Source: Flavobacteriaceae bacterium PS02337 (GTDB lineage Bacteria; Bacteroidota; Bacteroidia; Flavobacteriales; Flavobacteriaceae). Taken from it: a stretch of 64,000 nt of DNA. The position numbers were made by a program, and so were the translations under genes. The notes below the pieces were generated by a model, which searched no databases, had not been told where the DNA came from, and was given only the letters and a program-made list of their open reading frames with translations. Positions 52,544 to 64,000 of the stretch are shown piece after piece (position 1 is the first letter of the stretch; each line of letters begins with the position of its first letter). The DNA is taken from assembly GCA_029959285.1 (NCBI GenBank), contig JASCOE010000004.1, positions 186,001 through 250,000 of the forward strand, given 5' to 3'.

Positions 52544-52875
52544 TTTTTATTGCTGTATATTTAAAATTATAGACTAATTCAATTGCTTTAATAGCTATTT
52601 TTCTAGAAAATTTTATGAAGAATAATAAAATGTAAATATAGCGATAATGTTTGTCTTTTTATTTTAATCATCAATTTGCATCAGTCAAAATGTAAGTGCT
52701 TCATTCTATTTATATTGGTAAATAATTTATTACATAAAAATTAAATTATTGCAATTTACCGATATTTTTTACTCATTTTATTGATATTTTTTTCCCTTTT
52801 ACGGCTTTCCTCATTCTATTGTGGTTTTCTTTTTTGTATTATTGTACAGGTTAATTTTAAATTTTAAATGTTATA
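52544..52875. other. 332-bp intergenic region before the Ter operon
   Basis: Very AT-rich, with no open frame of coding quality. It holds the promoters of the divergent DUF983 gene and Ter operon. Near the right end, tattattg (52837-52844) is one base off the -7 box and a ttg lies 15 bp upstream, about 32 bp before the first TerD start; this is a weak call. No strong hairpin or operator dyad was found. Confidence 0.45.
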
Positions 52876-53451
52876 ATGGCAATAAATTTACAAAAAGGGC
52901 AAAAGATTGATATTGGATTATCAAATATTACAGTTGGTTTAGGATGGGATCCAAATGAAGGAACTGGTCATGATTTTGATTTAGACGCATCAGCAATCAT
53001 GATTAATGCTAGCCGAAAACTTTTGGGCGAGAGTTATTTTGTTTTTTATAATAATTTATCATCTCCTGACGGAGCTTTATTGCATACAGGCGACGATCCT
53101 ACGGGAGGAAATAGTGACGGCGATGATGATGAAGCGATAAAAGTAGATTTAAGTAAAATTGATCCTGCAGTAGAAGAAATTCTTTTTGTGGTTACGATTG
53201 AAGATTTTGAGCGTAGAAAACAAAATTTTGGGCAAGTAAGAAATTCTTATATCAGAATTGTGGATGACGCAAATGGACAGGAAATTGCGAAGTACGAATT
53301 AGGAGAAGATTTTTCGATAGAAACTGGTGTAGAGTTCGGAAGACTTTACAAACGTAATGGAAATTGGAAATTTGAAGCTTCAGGTATTGGTTACAGAGCA
53401 GATTTAGGTTTCTTCTTGGAAAAATATTATTCAGGAGAAATAATTAAATAA
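52876..53451 (+). CDS. TerD-family protein, first gene of the Ter locus
   Basis: A 191-residue TerD domain of the cytoplasmic stress/tellurite family. The N-terminal AINLQKGQKI and the acidic metal-binding motifs HDFDLDASA (residues 32-40) and GDDPTGGNSDGDDDE (72-86) are the calcium-binding signature of the fold. It differs from the other TerD copies by the insertion RYRADLGFFLEKYYSGEIIK-like end (GYRADLGFFLEKYYSG). It opens the operon, 27 bp before the HAD gene. Confidence 0.93.
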   Translation: MAINLQKGQKIDIGLSNITVGLGWDPNEGTGHDFDLDASAIMINASRKLLGESYFVFYNNLSSPDGALLHTGDDPTGGNSDGDDDEAIKVDLSKIDPAVEEILFVVTIEDFERRKQNFGQVRNSYIRIVDDANGQEIAKYELGEDFSIETGVEFGRLYKRNGNWKFEASGIGYRADLGFFLEKYYSGEIIK

Positions 53452-53478
53452 TAGCTTAAGAATATTAAAAACTAGCCA

Positions 53479-54144
53479 TTGAATATAAATTATGAGAATT
53501 ACAGCCATCTTTCGTTTGATTTATGGCTGACATTGATAAAATCAAATCCAGAATTTAAACAAAAGAGAAATTTATTATTTAAAGACTTTTTTGAAATTGA
53601 ACACGGAATTGAAAAGGTAAATCAAGTTGTACGGCATTATGATGTTTTGTGTAATAATATTAACGAAAAAACAGGATTAAATATAGATACATACGAAATT
53701 TATTACTTAATTTTAGGCGCTTTAGATGTCAATTTTGATAAGAATGGAACCGATCGTCTAAAAGAGTTTTACGGTCATACAGAAGAGCTGTTTTTAAAAT
53801 TTAAACCAGTTTTGATTTATCCTGATATCGAAAAAATGTTTAAAGAAGTTACGAATCAAGGTAAGTCGATAAACATTTTGAGTAATACAGCATTTATAAA
53901 AGGAAAGGTTTTAAGAAAAATATTAGAACATTACGATCTGGCTGAATATTTAAAATTTCAGATTTATTCTGATGAAGTCGGATTTTCGAAACCAAATACT
54001 GAAATTTTTAAATTGGTATTTGACGAAGTAAACAAGTATAAAAAAATAGAAAAAAAAGATGTTTTGCACATCGGTGATAATAGTGTTGCTGATTACAATG
54101 GCGCATTAAAATTTGGTTTTGATGCACATCTATTAAAAATATAA
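53479..54144 (+). CDS. HAD-superfamily hydrolase in the Ter locus
   Basis: A 221-residue haloacid dehalogenase-type hydrolase, probably a phosphatase. Motif I is LSFDLWLTL (nucleophile Asp14), motif II ILSNT near 135, and motif IV HIGDNSVADYNGA near 196. The start is TTG at 53479, as no Met lies before motif I. Its stop is 2 bp before the phosphoribosyltransferase-like gene. HAD and PRTase genes are known partners in Ter neighbourhoods and are thought to make or alter a nucleoside-like metabolite. Confidence 0.88.
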   Translation: MNINYENYSHLSFDLWLTLIKSNPEFKQKRNLLFKDFFEIEHGIEKVNQVVRHYDVLCNNINEKTGLNIDTYEIYYLILGALDVNFDKNGTDRLKEFYGHTEELFLKFKPVLIYPDIEKMFKEVTNQGKSINILSNTAFIKGKVLRKILEHYDLAEYLKFQIYSDEVGFSKPNTEIFKLVFDEVNKYKKIEKKDVLHIGDNSVADYNGALKFGFDAHLLKI

Positions 54145-54146
54145 AA

Positions 54147-54953
54147 GTGAATATAAGTTACAGTTTACACAAAATTGCTGACCAAGAGATTTGTCCTTTT
54201 AAAGAGGCAGAATACAGCAGATTTAAGTTTGGAGACAAGTTCTATGCAGAGAAATTTGCAGAAGAACTCTTCGATGGATTTGTCGATCAGCATAAAGATC
54301 TGATTTTATCAGATAGAGAGATTGTTATCTTACCAAGTCCTTATTTGTCTATTCCGACAGCATCAAACTTTTTGTGTTACTATTTTAAAAAGGAGCTGAA
54401 CAGCTATTTATTTAAAAACGGAAAAAAGGCCTGTATAGAATCTAAAATTTACAGAAACCAAACTTACGTAACAGATTACGGAAATTTAGATTTTGAACAA
54501 AGAGTAAAATTAATTTCGAATGATACGTATTATATCGATCGTAATTTTATCGAAGGCAAACTATGCATTTTTGTTGATGACATCAAAATAACGGGAAGTC
54601 ACGAACATACCGTAAATAAAATTCTCGATCAATACGATGTTAAAGGAGATTTTCTGTTTGTGTACTATGCAGAATTGGCAAACAAAGAAATTCATCCGAA
54701 AATAGAAAATCACTACAATTATTTTGCGGTAAAAAATGTAGAAGATATCGTTTCGATTGTAAATAGTGAAGATTTTCAATACAATACAAGAATAGTAAAA
54801 TTTATATTAAGTCTTGATGATAAGCAGTTTGCTTACTTGATGTCGCATATTTCGATTAAAAAAAGCAACGAATTATTTCACTTGGCTATCAGTAATAATT
54901 ATCATCAGATTTTAGAATACAAAAACAATATTAACGTAATAAAAATAGATTAG
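54147..54953 (+). CDS. Phosphoribosyltransferase-like protein in the Ter locus
   Basis: A 268-residue protein. The segment LCIFVDDIKITGSHEHT (about 139-155) matches the PRPP-binding loop of type I phosphoribosyltransferases (VDDxxxTG). IVILPSPYLSIPTAS near 59-73 would be the PPi loop of the same fold. The last 70 residues form a helical tail of unknown role. The start is GTG at 54147, 2 bp after the HAD gene, so the pair is translationally coupled. It probably adds a ribosyl-phosphate to an unknown base. Confidence 0.8.
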   Translation: MNISYSLHKIADQEICPFKEAEYSRFKFGDKFYAEKFAEELFDGFVDQHKDLILSDREIVILPSPYLSIPTASNFLCYYFKKELNSYLFKNGKKACIESKIYRNQTYVTDYGNLDFEQRVKLISNDTYYIDRNFIEGKLCIFVDDIKITGSHEHTVNKILDQYDVKGDFLFVYYAELANKEIHPKIENHYNYFAVKNVEDIVSIVNSEDFQYNTRIVKFILSLDDKQFAYLMSHISIKKSNELFHLAISNNYHQILEYKNNINVIKID

Positions 54954-54956
54954 ATT

Positions 54957-55511
54957 ATGGCTATTAATTTGCAGAAAGGACAAAGAGAAAATATAAATGC
55001 GCCAAAATTTACAATTGGTTTAGGATGGGACACCAACAACAGCAGCACTGGAACTAGTTTTGATCTTGATGCTTCAGCTTTTATTGTGGGTGAAAACGGA
55101 AAAATATTATCTGATGCTCATTTTATCTTTTATAATAATCTAAAATCTCCAGACGAGTCTGTTATTCACACAGGAGATAACTTGACAGGAGACGGAGACG
55201 GCGACGATGAGCAAATAAAAATAGACTTAACTAAGATTAATTCGGCTGTAAAAGAAATCTGTATTGTGGTTACCATTCACGATGCTGAAGGAAGAAGACA
55301 AAATTTCGGACAAGTGCGTAATTCATTTATTCGTATTGTAGACGATTCTAATAATACAGAAATGGTTAAATACGAATTGGAAGAAGATTTCTCTATTGAA
55401 ACTGCAGTTGAATTTGGAAGAATTTACAACAAAGACGGGCAATGGAAATTTGAAGCAATGGGTGTGGGAATGAAAGGCGGTTTAGAAGATTATTTAAATA
55501 AATATAACTAA
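54957..55511 (+). CDS. terD: TerD-family protein
   Basis: A 184-residue canonical TerD protein: AINLQKGQRENI, SFDLDASAFI and GDNLTGDGDGDDE carry the calcium-binding acidic residues; QNFGQVRNSFIRI is conserved. It is close to the copy at 58222-58773. It starts 3 bp after the PRTase-like gene and 3 bp before the longer TerD-like gene. Confidence 0.95.
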   Translation: MAINLQKGQRENINAPKFTIGLGWDTNNSSTGTSFDLDASAFIVGENGKILSDAHFIFYNNLKSPDESVIHTGDNLTGDGDGDDEQIKIDLTKINSAVKEICIVVTIHDAEGRRQNFGQVRNSFIRIVDDSNNTEMVKYELEEDFSIETAVEFGRIYNKDGQWKFEAMGVGMKGGLEDYLNKYN

Positions 55512-55514
55512 GAT

Positions 55515-56123
55515 ATGGCAATTAATTTAGAAAAAGGACAACGTATTAATCTTGAAAAAAGTAACGGCTCAAAACTTGTAAACATCTGTGTTGGTGTAAA
55601 CTGGGGAGCAATCGAGAAAAAAGGATTTTTTGGCACTAAAAAAGAGCCAGTAGATTTAGATGCAAGCTGTGCTGTTTATGATGACAAGAAAAACCATATT
55701 GATTCGGTAAACTTTAGAAAATTAATTTCTAGCGATCGCGCTATTAAACATAGTGGAGATGATTTAACAGGAGATTTAAACGGTGATGACGGATTGGATA
55801 ATGAAGTTATTACTTTAGATTTTTCTCAATTAACGCCTTCTGCAAGTTATGTTGCATTTTTTATAAACAGTTTTAGAGGTCAGGATTTTAAAGACATTCC
55901 TTTCGCATCTATCAGAATATACGAAGGAACTCCAACAAGAGTAACGCAAGAGTTTGCACGTTATGACATTGCAAACGACGCTTCTTTTGCAGGAAATGTA
56001 TCTATGGTTTTGGGTGTTTTTTATAAAAGAAACGACGAATGGAAATTTAACGCAGTTGGAGTACCAACGAGCGATAAAAAATTAGAACAAACTATTCTAA
56101 CAATTCAACAGAATCATCTATAA
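55515..56123 (+). CDS. TerD-like protein, longer TerZ/TerA type
   Basis: 202 residues. The fold is that of TerD but with the insertion GAIEKKGFFGTKKEPVDLDA, the acidic GDDLTGDLNGDDGLDNE, and FASIRIYEGTPTR in place of the usual QVRNSFIRI strand. This form fits the TerZ/TerA-like branch. It forms a pair with the TerD just before it; the same pair recurs at 58222-59456. Confidence 0.9.
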   Translation: MAINLEKGQRINLEKSNGSKLVNICVGVNWGAIEKKGFFGTKKEPVDLDASCAVYDDKKNHIDSVNFRKLISSDRAIKHSGDDLTGDLNGDDGLDNEVITLDFSQLTPSASYVAFFINSFRGQDFKDIPFASIRIYEGTPTRVTQEFARYDIANDASFAGNVSMVLGVFYKRNDEWKFNAVGVPTSDKKLEQTILTIQQNHL

Positions 56124-56128
56124 TAATC

Positions 56129-57214
56129 ATGGAAAATCAATTAGTTACACAAGAGAATTCTGCTTTGATTGATAAAGATGGAAATGTAAACTTAGCTTCG
56201 ATTACAGAAGCAGAAGTAAATAATTATAAAAACATCTCCAATCAATTGAATGAAAATGACGCCAATTCGATTCTGAATTATGGTGCTGAGATTCAAAATT
56301 CTATAGCGAAGCAAAGTGATAATTTCTTAACAAATGTAAGAACTTATAATTCTGGTGAAGTTGGAGGATTGATTACTGATTTATTGACTGAATTGAATTA
56401 TATAGATGTTGATGAGTTAAATCAAGGTCCATTCAAGAGATTCTTATCAAAAATTCCATTATTGAATAAGCTTATCACTGACGTGAAAAAATTATTCCAA
56501 GAATACGACAGAATTACTGTAAATATTGATAAAATCAGTAATAAAGTAAAAGCTGGAATGATTAATTCTGTGAAAGATAACAGCGCACTTCAAACCATGT
56601 TTGACGGAAATGTGAATCTGATCAAAGAAATGGAAAAACACATTATTGCAGGACAAATTCGTTTTAAAGAATTAAACGAAGAACTTGCTGTGATGGAAGC
56701 CAATAGCGTACAATATCAAGATTATCAAATTTCAGATAAAAGAACTTTTATCAATCGTCTAGACAAACGTTTGGCCGATATGAAAATTGTACGTTTTATT
56801 ATGCTTCAATCTTTGGCGCAAATTAGAGTGGTGCAAAACAACAACACTTCTATTGCAGAAAAAGCACAGTCAATTTTGACTACGACAATGCCAGTTTGGA
56901 AAAACCAGCTGACTCTTGCTGTGGCGCTTCAAAGACAAAAACAAAATATAGAAGTACAAAGAAAAGTATCAGAAACTACCAATACTATTTTACAGAAAAA
57001 TGCAGAAATGCTGAAACAAAATAGTATTGAAGTAGCAAGAGAAAACGAAAACACAGTAGTTTCTTTGGAGACACTAAAAATGACAACAAAATCTCTGATC
57101 GATACTTTGACAGAAGTGAAACAAATTCATGAACAAGGTACAGAAACCAGAAGACAGCTTGATGCTGGTTTACAAAGTCTAGAACAAGAATTGAAAAAAG
57201 GCGTTGTGAGCTAA
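56129..57214 (+). CDS. telA: Toxic anion resistance protein TelA
   Basis: A 361-residue, almost wholly helical, cytoplasmic protein. The family region includes KRFLSKIPLLNKLITDVKK (about 103-121), a long coiled coil and QNSIEVARENENTVVSLETL (near 300). TelA/KlaA proteins accompany TerD genes and are tied to tellurite and peptide-antibiotic tolerance; the mechanism is not established. It starts 5 bp after the TerD-like gene. Confidence 0.92.
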   Translation: MENQLVTQENSALIDKDGNVNLASITEAEVNNYKNISNQLNENDANSILNYGAEIQNSIAKQSDNFLTNVRTYNSGEVGGLITDLLTELNYIDVDELNQGPFKRFLSKIPLLNKLITDVKKLFQEYDRITVNIDKISNKVKAGMINSVKDNSALQTMFDGNVNLIKEMEKHIIAGQIRFKELNEELAVMEANSVQYQDYQISDKRTFINRLDKRLADMKIVRFIMLQSLAQIRVVQNNNTSIAEKAQSILTTTMPVWKNQLTLAVALQRQKQNIEVQRKVSETTNTILQKNAEMLKQNSIEVARENENTVVSLETLKMTTKSLIDTLTEVKQIHEQGTETRRQLDAGLQSLEQELKKGVVS

Positions 57215-57248
57215 GAGGAATAAAAATTGATTGTTTGAAATTAGATAA

Positions 57249-58214
57249 ATGCAGGAGGAAGAGGAGAGATATCTTGAAATAATAAAAGAGAGTAATAGAA
57301 AATTAGTGATTTTAGAATTGTTGTCCAATTTCTTTAATCACAAGGATCTTGTTGGGGTTTTGGTACGAACAAAAATCATTCATAAACTCTTTGAAAAGAA
57401 TAGAATTTTAGATATTAATAAATTAGAACTATTTCATATTCAATATACTAACAGTTTGATTGATTTGTTTCAAAAACTAAAAAAATCGAAAGAACAGCAG
57501 TATGTTTTAATCTCAGACGAAAATTATATTAACGACGATATTTTGGCAAAATTAAAGTCAGAAATCGGAGAAACTAAGCTTTCAAAACAGTTGCAGCTGC
57601 ATGCACAAAATATGTCAAGAAAGATAGAAGAACTCTATCAATTGTTTGTGACAGAAAAAGATGTTTTTTTTAATTGGAATGATTTGCTGACATACTCGCA
57701 AAGTATACAAGCAGAATATTACAGAGAAATTACAATTGAACAATACGAAAAGCTTTCGCAGTTTAATAAAAGTGTTTATGAAAATACACACGCCAGATTT
57801 GAAAGAAAGCTTTTAGGAAGATTAAATATTTTAAATTTTAAAATCAAATTTTCTTGCGGACTCGTTTGCAATAATGAGATTATTGAGATTTATGAGTTTA
57901 GAGATTCTAATGACAGATTTGTTTTTGTTGCCAACGAAAAAGCATTCTATTTCCTGAATGAAGAAGCGGTAAAAGGAATTGATCTTTCTAAAAATGATTC
58001 TTCAAAACAAATTATTATAAAAGGGCTGAAGAATAAAAATGCAGAATTGCAAAAAGAACTCAGTACTATTAAAACAACACTTCCAGAAAGTGTTTTGGAA
58101 GTTCTTAACGAATATCTTGAGAAAATTTCATCAGTAGATTTTCTGGATGAATTACAGAATGTTGATGAGCAGACCAATATTTTAAAAACAATGTTGAATA
58201 TTAATATTAATTAA
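57249..58214 (+). CDS. Unknown protein between telA and terD, 321 aa
   Basis: I do not recognise this family. It is soluble, mostly helical and charged, with a coiled-coil-like stretch at about 250-275 (GLKNKNAELQKELSTIKTT). A short beta segment, FSCGLVCNNEIIEIYEFRDS, lies near 200-225. No signal or membrane segment is seen. It lies between telA and the second TerD pair, so it is probably a partner of TelA. Its codon use looks like that of its neighbours. Confidence 0.75.
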   Translation: MQEEEERYLEIIKESNRKLVILELLSNFFNHKDLVGVLVRTKIIHKLFEKNRILDINKLELFHIQYTNSLIDLFQKLKKSKEQQYVLISDENYINDDILAKLKSEIGETKLSKQLQLHAQNMSRKIEELYQLFVTEKDVFFNWNDLLTYSQSIQAEYYREITIEQYEKLSQFNKSVYENTHARFERKLLGRLNILNFKIKFSCGLVCNNEIIEIYEFRDSNDRFVFVANEKAFYFLNEEAVKGIDLSKNDSSKQIIIKGLKNKNAELQKELSTIKTTLPESVLEVLNEYLEKISSVDFLDELQNVDEQTNILKTMLNININ

Positions 58215-58221
58215 AAATAAA

Positions 58222-58773
58222 ATGGCAATTAACTTAGAAAAAGGACAAAGACAAAGTATCGATGCTCCAAAATTTACTGTTGGATTAGGATGGGATAGTA
58301 ATTCAAGCAACACAGGATCAAGTTTTGATTTGGATGCTTCAGTTTTTTTAGTTGGTGCAAATGGAAAAATTCCAAATGACAATCATTTTATTTATTACAA
58401 TAATTTAAAATCTCCAGATCAGGCAGTTACGCACGCTGGTGATAACTTAACAGGAGACGGCGATGGCGACGATGAAAAAGTATACATCGATTTGTCTAAA
58501 ATTTCTCCAGAAGTTCACGAAATCTGTTTTGTGGTTACTATTCACCATGCTGATACAAAAAGACAAAATTTTGGACAAGTTAGAAATTCATTCATTAGAA
58601 TTCTAGATCAGGCTAATGTTGAGTTAGTTAAATACGAACTTGATGAAGATTTTTCTATAGAAACTGCTGTTGAATTTGGCAGAATTTACAAAAGAAACGA
58701 AGAGTGGAAATTTGAAGCTGTTGGTATTGGAATGAAAGGTGGTTTACAAGATTACTTAAATAAATACAATTAA
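58222..58773 (+). CDS. terD: TerD-family protein (second copy)
   Basis: A 183-residue TerD protein very similar to the one at 54957-55511: AINLEKGQRQSI, FDLDASVFLVG, GDNLTGDGDGDDE and QNFGQVRNSFIRI are all kept. It starts 7 bp after the unknown gene and is followed 23 bp later by the longer TerD-like gene. Confidence 0.95.
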   Translation: MAINLEKGQRQSIDAPKFTVGLGWDSNSSNTGSSFDLDASVFLVGANGKIPNDNHFIYYNNLKSPDQAVTHAGDNLTGDGDGDDEKVYIDLSKISPEVHEICFVVTIHHADTKRQNFGQVRNSFIRILDQANVELVKYELDEDFSIETAVEFGRIYKRNEEWKFEAVGIGMKGGLQDYLNKYN

Positions 58774-58796
58774 TTAATTTAAAAACATTAACTCAA

Positions 58797-59456
58797 ATGG
58801 CAATTAACTTAACCAAAGGTCAAAAAATTGATTTAAGAAAAACAAGTGGTGAAACATTAACTAACTTCTGTGTTGGAGTAAACTGGGGAGCTATTGAAAC
58901 AAAAGGCTTTTTAGGATTATCAAAAAATGTAGTAGATATCGATTTAGATTTAAGCTGTATTTTAATTGATGATCAAAACAGACTTTGCGATCATTTATAT
59001 TCTCCATTATACCGAGTAGAAGTATTACAGCAATTTGGTTTGCCAAAAGGTAAATTATTAAGTGTTGATGGTGCTTTAAAACATACTGGAGATGATCTTG
59101 CCGGAGATACAGGCGGAGATGATGGTTTAGATAATGAAATTATTACAGTTGACCTTTCTAAAGTTGATGCTAAAGTAACTCAGATATTTTTCTTTTTGAA
59201 CAATGCTGGAAAAGAAGATTTCTCTCAAATTCCGTATGCAAAAATTAGAATGTACGAAGGAACTCCAACAAGAGTAGTTTCTGAATTCGCTTCTTATAAT
59301 GTAGCCGCAGACCGTCAATACGTAAACAAGCGTTCTATTATTATGGGTAAATTATACAAACGTAACGGAGAATGGAAATTCAGTGCAATTGGAGATCCAA
59401 CAGACGATACTTTTTTAGGACAAACTATTCATAAAATCGTTAAGTCTTACCTATAA
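58797..59456 (+). CDS. TerD-like protein, longest form (second copy of pair)
   Basis: A 219-residue relative of the 202-residue gene: NFCVGVNWGAIETKGFLG and IRMYEGTPTRVVSEFASY are shared. A region of about 20 residues, CDHLYSPLYRVEVLQQFG, is extra here. The acidic motif GDDLAGDTGGDDGLDNE keeps the metal-binding pattern. Its stop overlaps the next ATG by one base. Confidence 0.9.
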   Translation: MAINLTKGQKIDLRKTSGETLTNFCVGVNWGAIETKGFLGLSKNVVDIDLDLSCILIDDQNRLCDHLYSPLYRVEVLQQFGLPKGKLLSVDGALKHTGDDLAGDTGGDDGLDNEIITVDLSKVDAKVTQIFFFLNNAGKEDFSQIPYAKIRMYEGTPTRVVSEFASYNVAADRQYVNKRSIIMGKLYKRNGEWKFSAIGDPTDDTFLGQTIHKIVKSYL

Positions 59457-59869
59457 TGCAAATCAAAAATATCGATGGACTAAGAGTTTCTCAAGTGAGA
59501 GATTTAGTCGGACAAGGTGGAAAATTTGTTGTTTTTCCATACACAGTTTCATTTGTCATAATGACCTTAAAAAGAAGTTCAGATATCTATTTTATTAGAC
59601 CTGACGAAAATACTTTTAAATATTCATACGGATATGTTCTGCTAAACTTTTTCATTGGATGGTGGGGATTTCCGTGGGGACCAATCTATACAATCGGTTC
59701 TCTATATCATCATATTTGCGGTGGTAAAGATTTAACTTTTGAAGTAATGAATCATTTAGGACAGCACGATCCAGAAGCAAATACAAATACTTATAATATC
59801 GATGGAGTAGAAAGTTCTAACCAAGGAAATAGCGCTTCAGAAACTCCAACGTATAATATTCCTGTATAA
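59456..59869 (+). CDS. Unknown small protein with a Trp-rich hydrophobic segment, 137 aa
   Basis: A central segment (about 60-85), LNFFIGWWGFPWGPIYTIGSLYHHI, shown here only in part (FFIGWWGFPWGPIYTI), is strongly hydrophobic and may dip into the membrane. An N-terminal beta-rich part (KFVVFPYTVSFVIMTLKRSS) comes before it and a polar Asn/Thr-rich tail after it. No family name is known to me. It is tied to the TerD gene before it by overlapping stop/start (TAATG) and precedes the first TerY gene by 10 bp. Confidence 0.7.
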   Translation: MQIKNIDGLRVSQVRDLVGQGGKFVVFPYTVSFVIMTLKRSSDIYFIRPDENTFKYSYGYVLLNFFIGWWGFPWGPIYTIGSLYHHICGGKDLTFEVMNHLGQHDPEANTNTYNIDGVESSNQGNSASETPTYNIPV

Positions 59870-59879
59870 ATAGTATATC

Positions 59880-60518
59880 ATGAGAAGACTGCCTGTATAT
59901 TTACTTTTAGACACATCTGGTTCAATGACTGGCGAACCTATTGAAGCTGTTAAAAACGGCGTACAAATGATGATCAGTTCATTGCGACAAAATCCGCAAG
60001 CCATAGAAACTGCTTTTTTAAGTGTCATTACTTTTGACAGTACGGCGCAGCAGATTATTCCTTTGACCGATTTGGCTTCTTTTCAAATGGTTGATTTAAA
60101 GGCAACTGGAGTTACCGCTCTTGGCGATGCTCTAAGATTGACCGCACAGAAAATAGAAACTGAAGTTGCCAAAACAACAACAGAACAAAAAGGCGATTGG
60201 AAACCATTAGTTTTCATTATGACTGACGGAATTCCGACAGATAATTGGGAAAGCGGTCTTGCAGAATTTAAAAAAGTAAAAACAGCTTTTACAGTTGCTT
60301 GCGCAGCTGGAGGAGGAGCAGATACCAATGTTCTAAAACAAATTACAGATACAGTAGTGAGTTTAGAAAATGCAGATAGTGCTAGTATTGGCAAGTTTTT
60401 TCAATGGGTAACAGCTTCAATTGGAGTAACTTCTACAAAAATTGAAGATTTAGGCAGAGAATTTACCAATGTAAAAGAATTACCTCCGCCGCCATCTGAA
60501 TTAAATATTGTGGTTTAA
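59880..60518 (+). CDS. TerY-type von Willebrand A protein (copy 1)
   Basis: A 212-residue vWA domain. The MIDAS motif DTSGSM at residues 11-16 binds a divalent metal; the third MIDAS residue lies in VFIMTDGIPTD. The N-terminal RRLPVYLLLD and a C-terminal Pro-rich tail (LPPPPSELNIVV) are family marks. TerY proteins are thought to act with a PP2C phosphatase and a protein kinase, both associated with this kind of locus. Confidence 0.92.
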   Translation: MRRLPVYLLLDTSGSMTGEPIEAVKNGVQMMISSLRQNPQAIETAFLSVITFDSTAQQIIPLTDLASFQMVDLKATGVTALGDALRLTAQKIETEVAKTTTEQKGDWKPLVFIMTDGIPTDNWESGLAEFKKVKTAFTVACAAGGGADTNVLKQITDTVVSLENADSASIGKFFQWVTASIGVTSTKIEDLGREFTNVKELPPPPSELNIVV

Positions 60519-60594
60519 ATTCAGTAAAAGGCGGAGTTATACCGTCTAATTAATAGTTCGAAATTCATTGTTTTACTAGTTTTTAAAAATTATT

Positions 60595-61230
60595 ATGAGA
60601 AGACTACCAGTATATTTTTTGCTAGATACTTCGGGTTCAATGTACGGAGAACCAATTCAGGCTTTGAATAATGCATTGAGCGGTATGATTAATACATTGC
60701 GTTCAGACGCGCAGGCATTAGATTCTCTTTGGATTAGTATTATAACGTACGACAGAGAAGTAAAAGAAATTGTGCCGTTAACAGAATTGGTTCATTTTCA
60801 GCTTCCTGAAATAACTTGTCCGCAAAGTGGTCCAACCAATACGGGCGCAGGTTTAGATTTTGTAATTCAGAAAGTAAAAACAGAAGTTATAAAAGGATCT
60901 GCAACTTTAAAAGGCGATTGGAAACCATTATTGTTTGTTTTTACAGACGGAAAACCATCGGATATTCAATTCTACAGAGAAAAAATTCAAGAAATAAAAG
61001 CCTTGAATTTTGGTGCAGTTGTAGGTTGCGCGGCAGGACATATGGCAAACGACAGTATTTTAAAAGAACTTACAGATAATGTGGTGCATTTAGATTCTGC
61101 TGATAGTTCTACTTTGAAACAATTCTTTAAATGGGTTTCTGAAACCATCGAACAAGGAAATAAAAGCCAGGGTACTGGAGAAAGTGTAACACTGCCGCCA
61201 CCGCCAAGCGAAATAACAGTAGTAGTTTAA
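60595..61230 (+). CDS. TerY-type von Willebrand A protein (copy 2)
   Basis: A 211-residue paralogue of copy 1, with MIDAS DTSGSM, TDGKPSD and the same tail (LPPPPSEITVVV). The 76-bp gap before it is the longest in this part of the operon, but no terminator is visible in it. It is followed 2 bp later by an unknown gene. Confidence 0.92.
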   Translation: MRRLPVYFLLDTSGSMYGEPIQALNNALSGMINTLRSDAQALDSLWISIITYDREVKEIVPLTELVHFQLPEITCPQSGPTNTGAGLDFVIQKVKTEVIKGSATLKGDWKPLLFVFTDGKPSDIQFYREKIQEIKALNFGAVVGCAAGHMANDSILKELTDNVVHLDSADSSTLKQFFKWVSETIEQGNKSQGTGESVTLPPPPSEITVVV

Positions 61231-61232
61231 TT

Positions 61233-61724
61233 ATGGAAGTAATTTTAACAATAATATCTGTTGTATCCTTATTATATAAAGTAATTTCTTCAATAAGTGA
61301 AGCTTCAGATAGTGGCAGTTCGCATCGTCATGTGGACACAAGCAATCATTATTTAGATAATTATGAATTTAGCGAAGAGGAAAAATTAGACAATATGAAT
61401 ATTGATAATTTAGTTGTTTGCTATAATTCAATTACCGCTGCTAATCATTCAATAAAAAGCGCTGTGCAATCATTGACTTATAATATCCACCAAAGTGATC
61501 TGGTAATAAAAGATATCATTGTGCGAAGAAATTGTATTTATGTAAAAGTAATGCATGCAATACCATTCTCAGAATGGAATAAATGTTATGGAGCGGCATT
61601 CTCCATCAATTATATGGAGCCTAATAATAGTTTTTCTGTCTACGGAATGGATAAAATAAATAAAGAAGAAGTCGCAACTTTTAAAGCTATTTCAAGCGAA
61701 TTATTAGCCGCACTTTCAAGATGA
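61233..61724 (+). CDS. Unknown protein with N-terminal membrane helix, 163 aa
   Basis: A hydrophobic N-terminal helix (VILTIISVVSLLYKVISS) is followed by a Ser/His-rich linker and a soluble domain of about 110 residues (for example DLVIKDIIVRRNCIYVKVMH, partly shown as IIVRRNCIYVKVMH). No family is recognised. The last codons overlap the next gene by 4 bp (ATGA). It lies between TerY copies 2 and 3. Confidence 0.68.
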   Translation: MEVILTIISVVSLLYKVISSISEASDSGSSHRHVDTSNHYLDNYEFSEEEKLDNMNIDNLVVCYNSITAANHSIKSAVQSLTYNIHQSDLVIKDIIVRRNCIYVKVMHAIPFSEWNKCYGAAFSINYMEPNNSFSVYGMDKINKEEVATFKAISSELLAALSR

Positions 61725-61972
61725 TTTTATTTAAAGTATTTATCAACGTTTTAATTGTCGGTCTGTTTTTATATTCAAAATTATTGCCTTATAAAGACAA
61801 ATTGAACCCTCAATACAAAACAGTTTTTGATTTTTTCAATAGTATATTTTCTCCAATATTCAATTTCTTAAAAACCACAATTAAACCTTTTCAAGTAGGT
61901 GTAGGTCTTGCAGTTGATATGACACAAATTATACTTTTAATTATTTTTTTAATGCTATTAAAATTCCTTTAA
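61721..61972 (+). CDS. Small two-helix membrane protein, 83 aa
   Basis: Two hydrophobic segments, at about residues 2-19 (ILFKVFINVLIVGLFLYS) and 63-82 (DMTQIILLIIFLMLLKFL), flank a polar middle with several Phe. The start overlaps the previous stop by 4 bp and the stop is 1 bp before TerY copy 3. No family is known. Confidence 0.66.
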   Translation: MILFKVFINVLIVGLFLYSKLLPYKDKLNPQYKTVFDFFNSIFSPIFNFLKTTIKPFQVGVGLAVDMTQIILLIIFLMLLKFL

Positions 61973-61973
61973 A

Positions 61974-63026
61974 ATGAGAAGATTACCAATATATTTTTTA
62001 ATTGATATTTCAGAATCAATGGTTGGAGAACCGATTCAGCAAGTTGAAGAAGGTTTGGCAACTATTATTCAAGCATTAAAAACAGATCCGCATGCTTTAG
62101 AAACGGTTTATGTTTCTATCATCGTTTTTGCTGGACAGCCAAAAACCTTAGTGCCGTTGCAGGAAATAGTGAGTTTTTATCCGCCTAAATTTCCAATTGG
62201 AAGCGGTACATCATTAAGTAAAGGTTTAGGTCATTTGATGTACGAATTAAGAAATAATATTGTTAAAACGACTTATGAAGTAAAAGGAGACTGGAAACCA
62301 ATTGTTTTCTTATTTACCGACGGAGTTCCGACAGACGATACGCAGGCAGCAATAAACGAATGGAAAAATAATTGGCAACGTACAGCAAATTTGATTGCGG
62401 TTTCATTTGGAAACGAAACTGATACAAAATTATTAGGTCAGCTGACAGAAAATGTACTTCACTTTAAAAATACAAATGTACAATCGTACAAAGAGTTTTT
62501 TAAATGGGTTACAGATTCTATTAAAACCAGCAGTATCAGTGTAGAAAATAATTCATCTGGATTTGAATTGGCAAAATTAGACGGAGAAACGCTGTCTAAA
62601 ATTGACTTGACAAAAGAAGAACCAAACAAGCAATATGTAGATGATAACTATGTGGTTTTGAGCGGTAAATGTCAAAATACGAAAAGACCATATTTGATGA
62701 AATACCGCAAAAATATTGCGCCATCTATTTATGCGGGAATCGAATTGGCTTCAAAAAATTACAAATTAGTTGGCGCTTATCAAGTTGATAACAATTATTT
62801 TGAATTGGCTGATACTAGTAATTTCAATACAAAAGTAAATACAGAAGAATTGTTTGGTGCTCCAACTTGTCCATGTTGTGGAAACCAGATTGCGTTTGCA
62901 GTTTGCGTTTGCGAAAAAATACATTGCATTGGCGACGAGCAAATTAGTACGTGTCCGTGGTGTAATAATCAAGGTTCTTATGGTTATGGAGAAGGCGGTT
63001 TTGATGTAAACAGAACGCAAGGATAA
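61974..63026 (+). CDS. TerY-type von Willebrand A protein with Cys-rich tail (copy 3)
   Basis: A 350-residue protein. The vWA part has MIDAS DISESM (residues 11-16) and LFTDGVPTDD. The C-terminal 140 residues form an extra domain whose end has several cysteines, in CPCCGNQ, CVCEKIHC and CPWCNNQ, arranged as a zinc-ribbon-like motif known as the TerY-C domain. It probably binds partners such as the PP2C phosphatase encoded 5 bp downstream. Confidence 0.92.
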   Translation: MRRLPIYFLIDISESMVGEPIQQVEEGLATIIQALKTDPHALETVYVSIIVFAGQPKTLVPLQEIVSFYPPKFPIGSGTSLSKGLGHLMYELRNNIVKTTYEVKGDWKPIVFLFTDGVPTDDTQAAINEWKNNWQRTANLIAVSFGNETDTKLLGQLTENVLHFKNTNVQSYKEFFKWVTDSIKTSSISVENNSSGFELAKLDGETLSKIDLTKEEPNKQYVDDNYVVLSGKCQNTKRPYLMKYRKNIAPSIYAGIELASKNYKLVGAYQVDNNYFELADTSNFNTKVNTEELFGAPTCPCCGNQIAFAVCVCEKIHCIGDEQISTCPWCNNQGSYGYGEGGFDVNRTQG

Positions 63027-63031
63027 TACGT

Positions 63032-64000
63032 ATGGAAGAGACCAAAAGATATCTTCAGTCTTTTTTATTCCAGAATAAAATCGATATTCCAAAAGGCAAA
63101 CAATCGCTTTTTGAAGATTTTATTTCTAGTGAAAATAATATTACAGCAGTAAAAATAATAAAAGAAAAACAGCAGATCATTATGCAAAATTGGAACTTAA
63201 TAAATCGAATAGATGATATTACGAATCAATCTGTTTTTCTGCCAAACGGTACAGTAAATAAAGCATACCAAGCAAAAATTGATTTTATGCAATTGGGTTG
63301 GGATGATATTATTTCGTACGAAATTGAAAATTTAGAAGAAACCGGACTTTCATTTGATCGCGAAGAAGAAGTACTTTCTGGAAATCCGAAAATAAGTGGT
63401 GATTTAAAAATAAAAATGCTTTTTAAAATTGATGGCGAATCAGAAGAAACGCCTTTAAATGAAAAAGTTTTTACCATCATTGTAAATCCTGACCCAAAAT
63501 CACTTTGGAAAAATATAGAAAGCGATAAAAATGCGCCTTTCGCTAAAGAAGATAATGTTGCGGTTGCGAGTACTTTTTTAGATAAAAAAATTGTTGTCGC
63601 CTCAAAAAGAGGAAGAAGTCACGCAAATGTGGGCTCTTTTAGAGAAGACGATTTTGCATTCAAAAATTTTGGAAAAAATGGCTGGAGTGTTTTGGCTGTT
63701 TCAGACGGCGCAGGTTCTGCGGCTTTGTCTAGAAAAGGTTCAAAATTAGCTTGCGATACTTTAATTGAATATTTCGAAGAAAATCTCGATAAAGAAAATT
63801 TAAAAGAATTTGACGAAATTTTACTTCATCATTATAATAAAACAGATTCAGATTCATCAAAAAAAATAAGCTACTTTGGTTACAACACATTATCAAAAGC
63901 GGCTCATTTTGTCAATCAAAAAATTGAAGAATTTGCGACTGCAAATAACGAAGAGCTGAAAAAATTTCACGCGACTTTAATTTTCGCTTTAGTTAAAAAA
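63032..64000 (+). CDS. PP2C-family Ser/Thr phosphatase with novel N-terminal region, 3' end cut
   Basis: The frame is open from ATG 63032 to the window end (323 codons), so the gene is incomplete. The PP2C catalytic domain begins near residue 185: RGRSHANVGSFREDDFAF and, with metal-binding Asp225, VSDGAGSAALSRKG. The N-terminal 170 residues are polar and beta-prone, with no clear match. In the TerY-P triad a TerY, a PP2C phosphatase and a kinase are linked; the kinase is not in this window and is expected further right. Confidence 0.85.
   Translation, partial: MEETKRYLQSFLFQNKIDIPKGKQSLFEDFISSENNITAVKIIKEKQQIIMQNWNLINRIDDITNQSVFLPNGTVNKAYQAKIDFMQLGWDDIISYEIENLEETGLSFDREEEVLSGNPKISGDLKIKMLFKIDGESEETPLNEKVFTIIVNPDPKSLWKNIESDKNAPFAKEDNVAVASTFLDKKIVVASKRGRSHANVGSFREDDFAFKNFGKNGWSVLAVSDGAGSAALSRKGSKLACDTLIEYFEENLDKENLKEFDEILLHHYNKTDSDSSKKISYFGYNTLSKAAHFVNQKIEEFATANNEELKKFHATLIFALVKK

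Follow-up and report, generated by a model that had tools for sequence, protein, structure and literature searches.

A composite Ter locus of 18 genes in a Flavobacteriaceae bacterium, a predicted Bacteroidota variant of a known system

Gene content and extent of the Ter locus

The window, the 64,000-nucleotide stretch of contig JASCOE010000004.1 of Flavobacteriaceae bacterium PS02337 analysed here, contains a run of 16 genes on the forward (+) strand at positions 52876–64000, which together encode a Ter-type locus (Table 1). An initial annotation of this DNA had listed 16 same-strand genes with named domains and anticipated a protein kinase gene past position 64000; the listing of open reading frames (ORFs) and the Pfam cut-offs confirmed the former, and the latter was found when the neighbouring stretch of the contig was read to complete the run, giving the locus numbered L006. 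The run crosses the window end, where the PP2C gene is completed and followed by the kinase gene, terC and a strong hairpin terminator, making 18 genes in total.

The TerD family, TerC and the nucleotide-type enzymes PRTase and HAD, by which Ter systems are recognised, are all present, and the sub-membrane component of such systems, TelA or TerF, is represented by TelA. No TerD genes beyond the five above the PF02342 cut-off were found in the 5.7 Mb genome, and Pfam cut-offs were also passed by HAD, PRTase_3, TelA, TerY_C/VWA and PP2C_2, with the remaining two TerY proteins passing the VWA cut-offs. Two components of the enterobacterial operon that are not required of a Ter system, TerB and a TerF-type vWA protein, had no match above cut-off among the locus proteins scanned, and TerA was not searched as such. 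Domains and gene order support the earlier view of TerD/TelA, nucleotide-type enzymes and a TerY-PP2C module as one operon-like Ter locus. The HAD motif I sequence FDLWLT was present in 55/59 sequences, with the second Asp of ordinary HAD phosphatases replaced by Trp, and the chemistry of this protein may therefore differ from that of ordinary HAD phosphatases.

Intergenic gaps range from -4 to +34 base pairs (bp), with the 76 bp between TerY1 and TerY2 as the sole exception, in line with the gaps of mostly 1–35 bp reported at first. Inspection by eye showed a promoter-like footprint upstream of TerD1 in 24 of the 32 regions aligned. At the other end, a 20-pair hairpin with a T tract lies 3′ of terC, with a minimum energy of -23.9 versus -7.1 ± 2.2 for shuffled sequences (z -7.5, 0/200 shuffles equally stable); it was not listed by a separate terminator consensus scan, and an ABC-F-like gene, named by eye, is located 249 bp downstream of terC. 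Division into several transcription units, which had been named at the outset as what would refute a composite locus, was rejected because internal promoter-like and terminator-like matches were at chance level over the locus and both strands (72 versus 67.9 ± 10.2 for promoters, scanned with a sigma-70 E. coli-type consensus only, and 6 versus 6.4 ± 2.7 for terminators). No RNA family was found within the locus in Rfam at the gathering threshold. The simplest reading of the gene run is a predicted single 18-gene operon of a Bacteroidota Ter type.

Table 1. Features of the Ter locus. Positions are those of the window, except for the two genes outside it, which are given on L006.
Feature	Position	Strand	Basis
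Upstream region, conserved promoter-like footprint TTTACGG .. CATT .. TTTTTGTATYATTGTA	52780..52849	+	Alignment by eye
TerD1, TerD family	52876..53451	+	PF02342 above cut-off
HAD hydrolase, motif I FDLWLT	53479..54144	+	PF00702, E 3e-12
PRTase_3 phosphoribosyltransferase, PRPP-type loop DDIKITGSH	54147..54953	+	PF15610, E 1.5e-87
TerD2, TerD family	54957..55511	+	PF02342
TerDs3, divergent TerD family	55515..56123	+	PF02342, E 2.3e-30
TelA	56129..57214	+	PF05816, E 2.3e-91
U321, TelA companion, 321 amino acids	57249..58214	+	Alignment, adjacency, structure model
TerD4, TerD family	58222..58773	+	PF02342
TerDs5, divergent TerD family	58797..59456	+	PF02342, E 3e-30
U137, optional gene	59456..59869	+	Alignment, presence/absence
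TerY1, vWA with metal-site motif, C-terminal tail ELPPPPSELNIVV	59880..60518	+	VWA
TerY2, vWA, C-terminal tail TLPPPPSEITVVV	60595..61230	+	VWA
U163, 163 amino acids, allele-swapped variable gene	61233..61724	+	Identities, trees, dN/dS, model
U83, YggT-like small protein	61721..61972	+	PF02325 in relatives
TerY-C, vWA and TerY_C metal-binding domain	61974..63026	+	PF15616, E 8.2e-50
PP2C phosphatase, cut by the window (full length 469 amino acids)	63032..64000	+	PF13672
Protein kinase, 503 amino acids, outside the window	L006:12445-13956		2 bp gap after PP2C
TerC, outside the window	L006:13987-14988		TIGR03718; 30 bp gap after kinase

Modular composition and genomic site

The comparison comprised 64 distinct loci, with genes labelled by sequence search and profile. 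The 43 named loci L043-L085 were found with U321 as query, and U321 is present there by construction; further unnamed loci were added. One of the named loci, L060, is from a Flavobacterium johnsoniae genome. A fairer set was formed by 22 uncut Flavobacterium loci anchored on the PRTase (from 23 of 250 genomes, with one cut contig omitted), where the PRTase is present by construction; the genomes behind the two sets overlap. Sixteen loci were treated as duplicates, since the final 200 residues of their TerY-C, HAD or TelA matched those of another locus exactly, and were left out of the motif, loss-tree and tail/gap counts; some of these, such as L044 and L066, represent different genomes.

The operon is modular, and consists of a HAD-PRTase-TerD core, a TelA-U321 pair, a TerY-PP2C-kinase cassette and TerC, in an order that is conserved in relatives, the absence of which had been named at the outset as a reason to discard a composite locus. 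HAD accompanies the PRTase in all 22 PRTase-anchored loci, TelA and U321 occur together in 17 and are jointly missing from five, with neither ever found alone, and the kinase, PP2C and TerY-C are all present in 20 and all absent in two. The TerY cassette is gained or lost as a block, and TerC directly follows the last TerD gene in six loci where the cassette is missing (L054-L056, L072-L074). A minimal form with the order HAD-PRTase-TerD-TelA-U321-TerD-TerC was found in other families (L101, L103, L105). These genes are rare in Bacteroidota, with TerY_C detected in 10, U321 in 15 and TelA above cut-off in 16 of the 395 sampled genomes.

The genes flanking the operon were named by eye, and we take them to encode an oxidoreductase ('DAO') and DUF983, ABC-F and DUF2183 proteins. 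An empty site, with the oxidoreductase, DUF983-like and ABC-F-like genes adjacent and no Ter gene between them, was found in all 16 relatives fetched, which had been picked as the best matches among the 79 genomes that have this oxidoreductase. The oxidoreductase tree of 38 genomes (22 with and 16 without the operon, omitting the window's own copy, which is cut in L006) showed at least nine state changes, at least seven of which are forced by supported branches, and the operon has therefore been repeatedly gained or lost at one site. Some loci do not show the oxidoreductase gene upstream (L053-L056, L063, L070, L071). Since no integrase was noticed by eye in the locus, our guess is that the operon may move by homologous recombination through its flanks.

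TelA and its companion U321

By coordinates, TelA adjoins U321 in all 15 sampled Bacteroidota genomes that encode U321, and 15 of the 16 genomes with TelA above cut-off also have U321. The sole TelA genome lacking U321, G151, showed no Ter genes by eye among the ORFs listed at L174:4000-15000 and was set apart, and four of 20 TelA-positive genomes fell below the family cut-off and were left uncounted. The structure model of U321 contains mainly long helices (coiled coil) and a small beta domain, with a predicted local distance difference test score (pLDDT) of 84.6 and a predicted template modelling score (pTM) of 0.57. Its C-terminal tail, LQNVDEQTNILK.MLNINI, is nearly invariant in 25 aligned members, and varies in more distant ones. 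Pfam matches of U321 were scattered and weak, none of them convincing, and there was no convincing match among solved structures. We infer that U321 is a TelA partner, the tail of which may dock to something conserved.

A phage or plasmid origin of U321 was considered and rejected because no relatives were present in such records, with zero matches in 72,556 plasmid records and 50,697 phage records, and none of 110 pattern matches in viral contigs being a relative. Two small genes resembling a toxin-antitoxin pair (PIN-type and ribbon-helix-helix-type, by eye) lie between TelA and U321 at L082:9208-9899.

The TerY cassette

The vWA motif I is kept in 26/31 TerY1, 44/44 TerY2 and 44/44 TerY-C sequences. 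The PP2C protein matched PF13672 with 97.6 bits, with all five motifs tested present in 35 of 42 sequences, and the kinase scored 33.7 bits for PF00069 (cut-off 31.7), with its motifs HSDL...N and D[LI]DG present in 41/42. Pairs of C..C residues forming a cysteine cluster were visible by eye at the C-terminus of the kinase, and may represent a zinc ribbon. The cassette hence contains the parts of the TerY-P triad, with three vWA TerY proteins, PP2C and a Ser/Thr kinase with a putative C-terminal zinc ribbon.

The C-termini of TerY1 and TerY2 consist of polyproline followed by a hydrophobic stretch, and TerY-C has a metal-binding domain in place of this tail. In 27/31 TerY1 and 36/44 TerY2 proteins the terminal sequence is LPPPPSE, then I, L or V and finally a short hydrophobic stretch, and the remaining tails are mostly the close variants LPPPPAE, LPPPPDE and LPTPPSE, with FPPPADLDIIL (L115) the most divergent. 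Related tails are found on TerY proteins of an IncHI2 plasmid (LPPPPPEVNVVL and LPPPPPEIQLVL), of Azospirillum (LPPPPPQITLV and LPPPPPEIQIVF) and of Hymenobacter (LPPPPAELNIVT). Judging from these termini, the tail is common to several phyla, presumably by descent or transfer, and it is probably a docking peptide. A literature search of titles and abstracts gave none pointing to this tail.

On a Hymenobacter plasmid (L177:14164-16406), a vWA-TerY gene is located just before a PP2C stretch that is 53% identical to the PP2C of the window and is annotated as two genes. One cassette contains a macro-domain protein (PF01661, E 1.2e-36) between U83 and TerY-C (L121:12955-13464), a hint that an ADP-ribose-type metabolite may be involved there. 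In one Bacteroidota locus, kinase and TerC are separated by a gene for a PrsW-type membrane protease (PF13367; L084:17887-18942), and other genes in variable slots encode an RDD protein (L122) and, in L115, a protein with weak similarity to TerB (E 0.0013, below cut-off).

The initial annotation had counted four unrecognised proteins in the window, and this holds for U137, U163 and U321, none of which is convincingly matched (U137 and U163 have no Pfam match); the fourth, U83, is YggT-like, with PF02325 matching 9/15 members (best E 2.5e-5; E 0.0043 for the window copy, below cut-off). U137 has a conserved GWWGxPWGPIYTIG motif and a YNIP C-terminus in the alignment, its presence varies among close relatives, and judged by eye it is probably a membrane protein. 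TerY1 and U83 are both present in 14 and both absent in six of the 20 PRTase-anchored loci with TerY-C, where one of the 14, L132, matches L043, whose U83 is disrupted. By eye, U83 is disrupted in place at L049:14440-14720 and L043:14190-14480 with TerY1 and U163 retained, and a relic of U83 is present in L061, a locus without TerY1.

Allele exchange at U163

The U163 gene differs from the rest of the operon in its pattern of variation. Its mean identity over 21 loci (210 pairs) was 0.555 versus 0.893 for a 14-gene core, and its rank correlation with core identity was 0.10, where other genes reach 0.3-0.82 except for U83 (0.12). In this comparison L063 contributed a gene labelled TerC that encodes a different TerC-family protein of 266 amino acids rather than the 332-335 amino acid type; this protein accounts for the lowest TerC identity (0.27) and makes the core identities of L063 pairs slightly lower. 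Between L043 and L044, DNA identity is 0.89-0.97 for every other gene but U83 (0.73), and 0.59 for U163, with the drop starting at the TerY2 stop codon. Conversely, the window locus and L048 share identities of 0.95 in U163 and 0.96 in U83 versus 0.81-0.93 elsewhere. With clades named after the identities were known, approximately unbiased (AU) tests rejected the grouping of L006 with L048 on the core tree (p-AU 1e-67) and of L006 with L043-L045 on the U163 tree (p-AU 4e-77). The synonymous distance between L006 and L048 is 0.18 in U163 versus 0.71 in the core, and this allele has therefore moved recently. Taken at the sequence level, U163 is a gene with deep allele classes that are exchanged between species, leaving the flanking genes nearly unchanged.

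The diversity of U163 may alternatively be due to loose constraint, without any varying partner being recognised, which we regard as a real possibility at less than even odds. The overall median ratio of nonsynonymous to synonymous substitution (dN/dS) of U163 was 0.19, the highest of ten genes tested (0.03-0.13 for the other nine), and the neighbouring U83 shows the two disruptions and the relic noted above, both as would be expected if constraint were loose. Within allele classes, on the other hand, dN/dS was 0.06-0.14 in eight of nine pairs chosen from the top of the identity ranking (0.35 in one very close pair), which indicates that U163 is kept by purifying selection, and the frame length is held at 151-163 amino acids in the 21 loci, which were selected for having U163. 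Furthermore, some alleles are younger than their flanks, as for L006 and L048, which requires exchange. Deep-class exchange under constraint is what would be expected if U163 encountered a varying partner, although it does not prove such a role.

In 250 Flavobacterium genomes U163 gave nine matches, one per genome and all inside fetched Ter loci, and it occurs only alongside TerY1 and U83, in 9/20 PRTase-anchored loci with TerY-C. Its model (pLDDT 70.9) comprises an alpha/beta domain and, at the N-terminus, a hydrophobic helix modelled with low confidence, and an NCBIfam search gave one pair of below-cut-off matches, the best with E 0.0017. A more specific and doubtful proposal is that U163 would be the membrane-anchored recognition determinant of a Ter/TerY-P immune switch, with allele classes recombining between Flavobacterium species and each meeting a different phage, bacteriocin or competitor signal.

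Relation to known Ter systems

The description of this gene order as not a standard published system was too strong, as the same joined modules are present on two plasmids. The E. coli IncHI2 plasmid pS38 (NZ_KX129782) shares with the window the TerD family, TerC, a PRTase gene, TerY-C, PP2C and kinase, as well as two vWA-TerY genes with LPPPPPE tails. It differs in having TerB, TerW, StiP and HpcH genes, along with additional members of the TerD and vWA families (by position presumably TerA, TerZ, TerE and TerF), arranged in two divergent blocks, whereas in the window PRTase_3, TelA-U321, U137, U163 and U83 are all in one direction. No TelA is annotated there, and U321 had no match in any plasmid record. 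The Azospirillum ramasamyi plasmid (NZ_CP029830) has TerD, TerC and then vWA-vWA-TerY-C-PP2C-kinase in the same order and direction as the window, with a PRTase nearby; unlike in the window, TerC precedes the TerY block, TerB, StiP and HpcH genes are present, and no TelA is annotated. The kinases of both plasmids also follow TerY-C and PP2C, and are 50% (pS38) and 54% (Azospirillum) identical to that of the window. Among the 72,556 plasmid records, 2304 matched TerY2 and 2211 matched PP2C.

The TerY-P triad was reportedly described by Anantharaman et al. 2012. What the triad and the window have in common is a vWA TerY, PP2C and a Ser/Thr kinase whose C-terminus bears a cysteine cluster (by eye); they differ in that the window's copy is embedded in a TerD/TelA/TerC operon rather than lying beside nuclease or restriction genes. 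TerY-P has been presented as a metal-sensing phosphorylation switch, with an OB-fold on the kinase reported for its 2020 defence version (Gao et al. 2020, as described in PMC11090510), and the triad was reported to be active against T7-like phages (PMC7699616). The parts of Ter systems in the published view are signal synthesis, sensing by TerD/TerB, TerC and TelA (PMC7824862).

A further relative is the yceCDE-meeF operon of Bacillus subtilis (PMC10550928). Like the window, it joins TerD genes with TerC; yceCDE are the TerD genes, with yceG-yceH(TelA) as their neighbours, and the operon is not known to contain a TerY-P cassette. No YceG Pfam family match was present among the U321 matches listed. 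The TelA-U321 pairing, the allele exchange of U163 and the cross-phylum TerY tail were not found described in the literature searches made. On sequence grounds, the locus is best classed as a Bacteroidota variant of a known composite Ter system.

The joining of the modules could be incidental, with independent TerD/TelA and TerY-P units lying side by side and functionally uncoupled. In keeping with such independence, three genomes have TerY-P and the TelA core at separate places (L111-L113 versus L102-L104), and several families have the core but no TerY-P; however, Flavobacterium loci with both place the TerY cassette between TerD/TelA and TerC wherever TerC is in view, the gaps in the window's locus are small, and Gamma- and Alphaproteobacteria also have these modules joined, which together make incidental joining improbable.

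Proposed function

The function is inferred from these comparisons, and is most likely a response to stress or phage that is linked to the membrane and controlled by phosphorylation; the membrane-linked stress or phage role proposed at first agrees to this extent with published views of Ter systems (PMC7824862, PMC11090510). We give a probability of roughly 0.6 to an 18-gene Bacteroidota Ter operon with the following signalling mechanism as the best explanation of the whole. Upon stress or phage attack, HAD and PRTase would make a nucleoside-like signal, which metal-binding TerD proteins would sense near the membrane, with TelA and U321 forming a sub-membrane coiled-coil scaffold. The three TerY proteins would bind metal, and TerY1 and TerY2 would dock via their polyproline tails to the kinase/PP2C pair, which would set the phosphorylation state of the complex, with handling of divalent metal in the membrane by TerC as the output. 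U137, U163 and U83 may act as membrane attachments of the TerY cassette, and U163 could be the component in contact with a variable partner or trigger.

Several observations weigh against this explanation. TelA and U321 are separated by more than 150 bp in 6/70 loci with both, and by one or two small genes in L077, L079, L082 and L120. On the PRTase tree, co-loss of TelA and U321 gave three well-supported independent pairs, all one way (sign test p 0.25), and one locus, L119, was wrongly scored there as lacking TelA on a contig of only 3,890 bases; losses of TerY1 and U83 gave four such pairs (median p 0.125), and these independent losses are too few to reach significance. TerY1 occurs without intact U83 in L049, L109, L111 and L115, while in L068 a gene is labelled as kinase but none as TerY-C or PP2C. 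Structure searches with U321 and U163 gave no match above background, phosphatase activity of the HAD protein is uncertain because the second motif I Asp is missing, and PADLOC, with 10/18 proteins scanned, gave weak kinase-fold matches only (E 1.9e-4 and above).

The locus might instead serve mainly divalent-metal and oxidative-stress homeostasis, with TerC supplying or exporting Mn/Zn, TerD buffering and the kinase/phosphatase tuning, and phage effects being secondary. The operon TerC is a full TerC/Alx-type protein (TIGR03718, 348 bits versus a cut-off of 246), TerC proteins metalate exported enzymes in B. subtilis (PMC10550928), and in K. pneumoniae the ter genes are Zn-induced and loss of terC affects Te, Zn, Mn and phage resistance (PMC12054061). 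The TerC metal role and the Klebsiella phenotypes support either a metal or a phage emphasis. A second TerC is, however, encoded elsewhere in the same genome, and the switching between presence and absence at one site, together with the swapped U163 alleles, is more reminiscent of conflict genes than of housekeeping ones, so that we consider a mainly homeostatic role unlikely, and tilt with modest confidence towards a conflict role for the proposed signalling operon.

The literature considered here has yet to settle what triggers Ter systems and what their output is. U163, which is allele-swapped yet constrained within a conserved Ter operon, would be a concrete candidate for the recognition step, and U321, as companion of the Ter-type TelA in Bacteroidota, may offer a handle on the role of TelA. 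The cross-phylum TerY tail is a short peptide, the binding partner of which would be directly testable.

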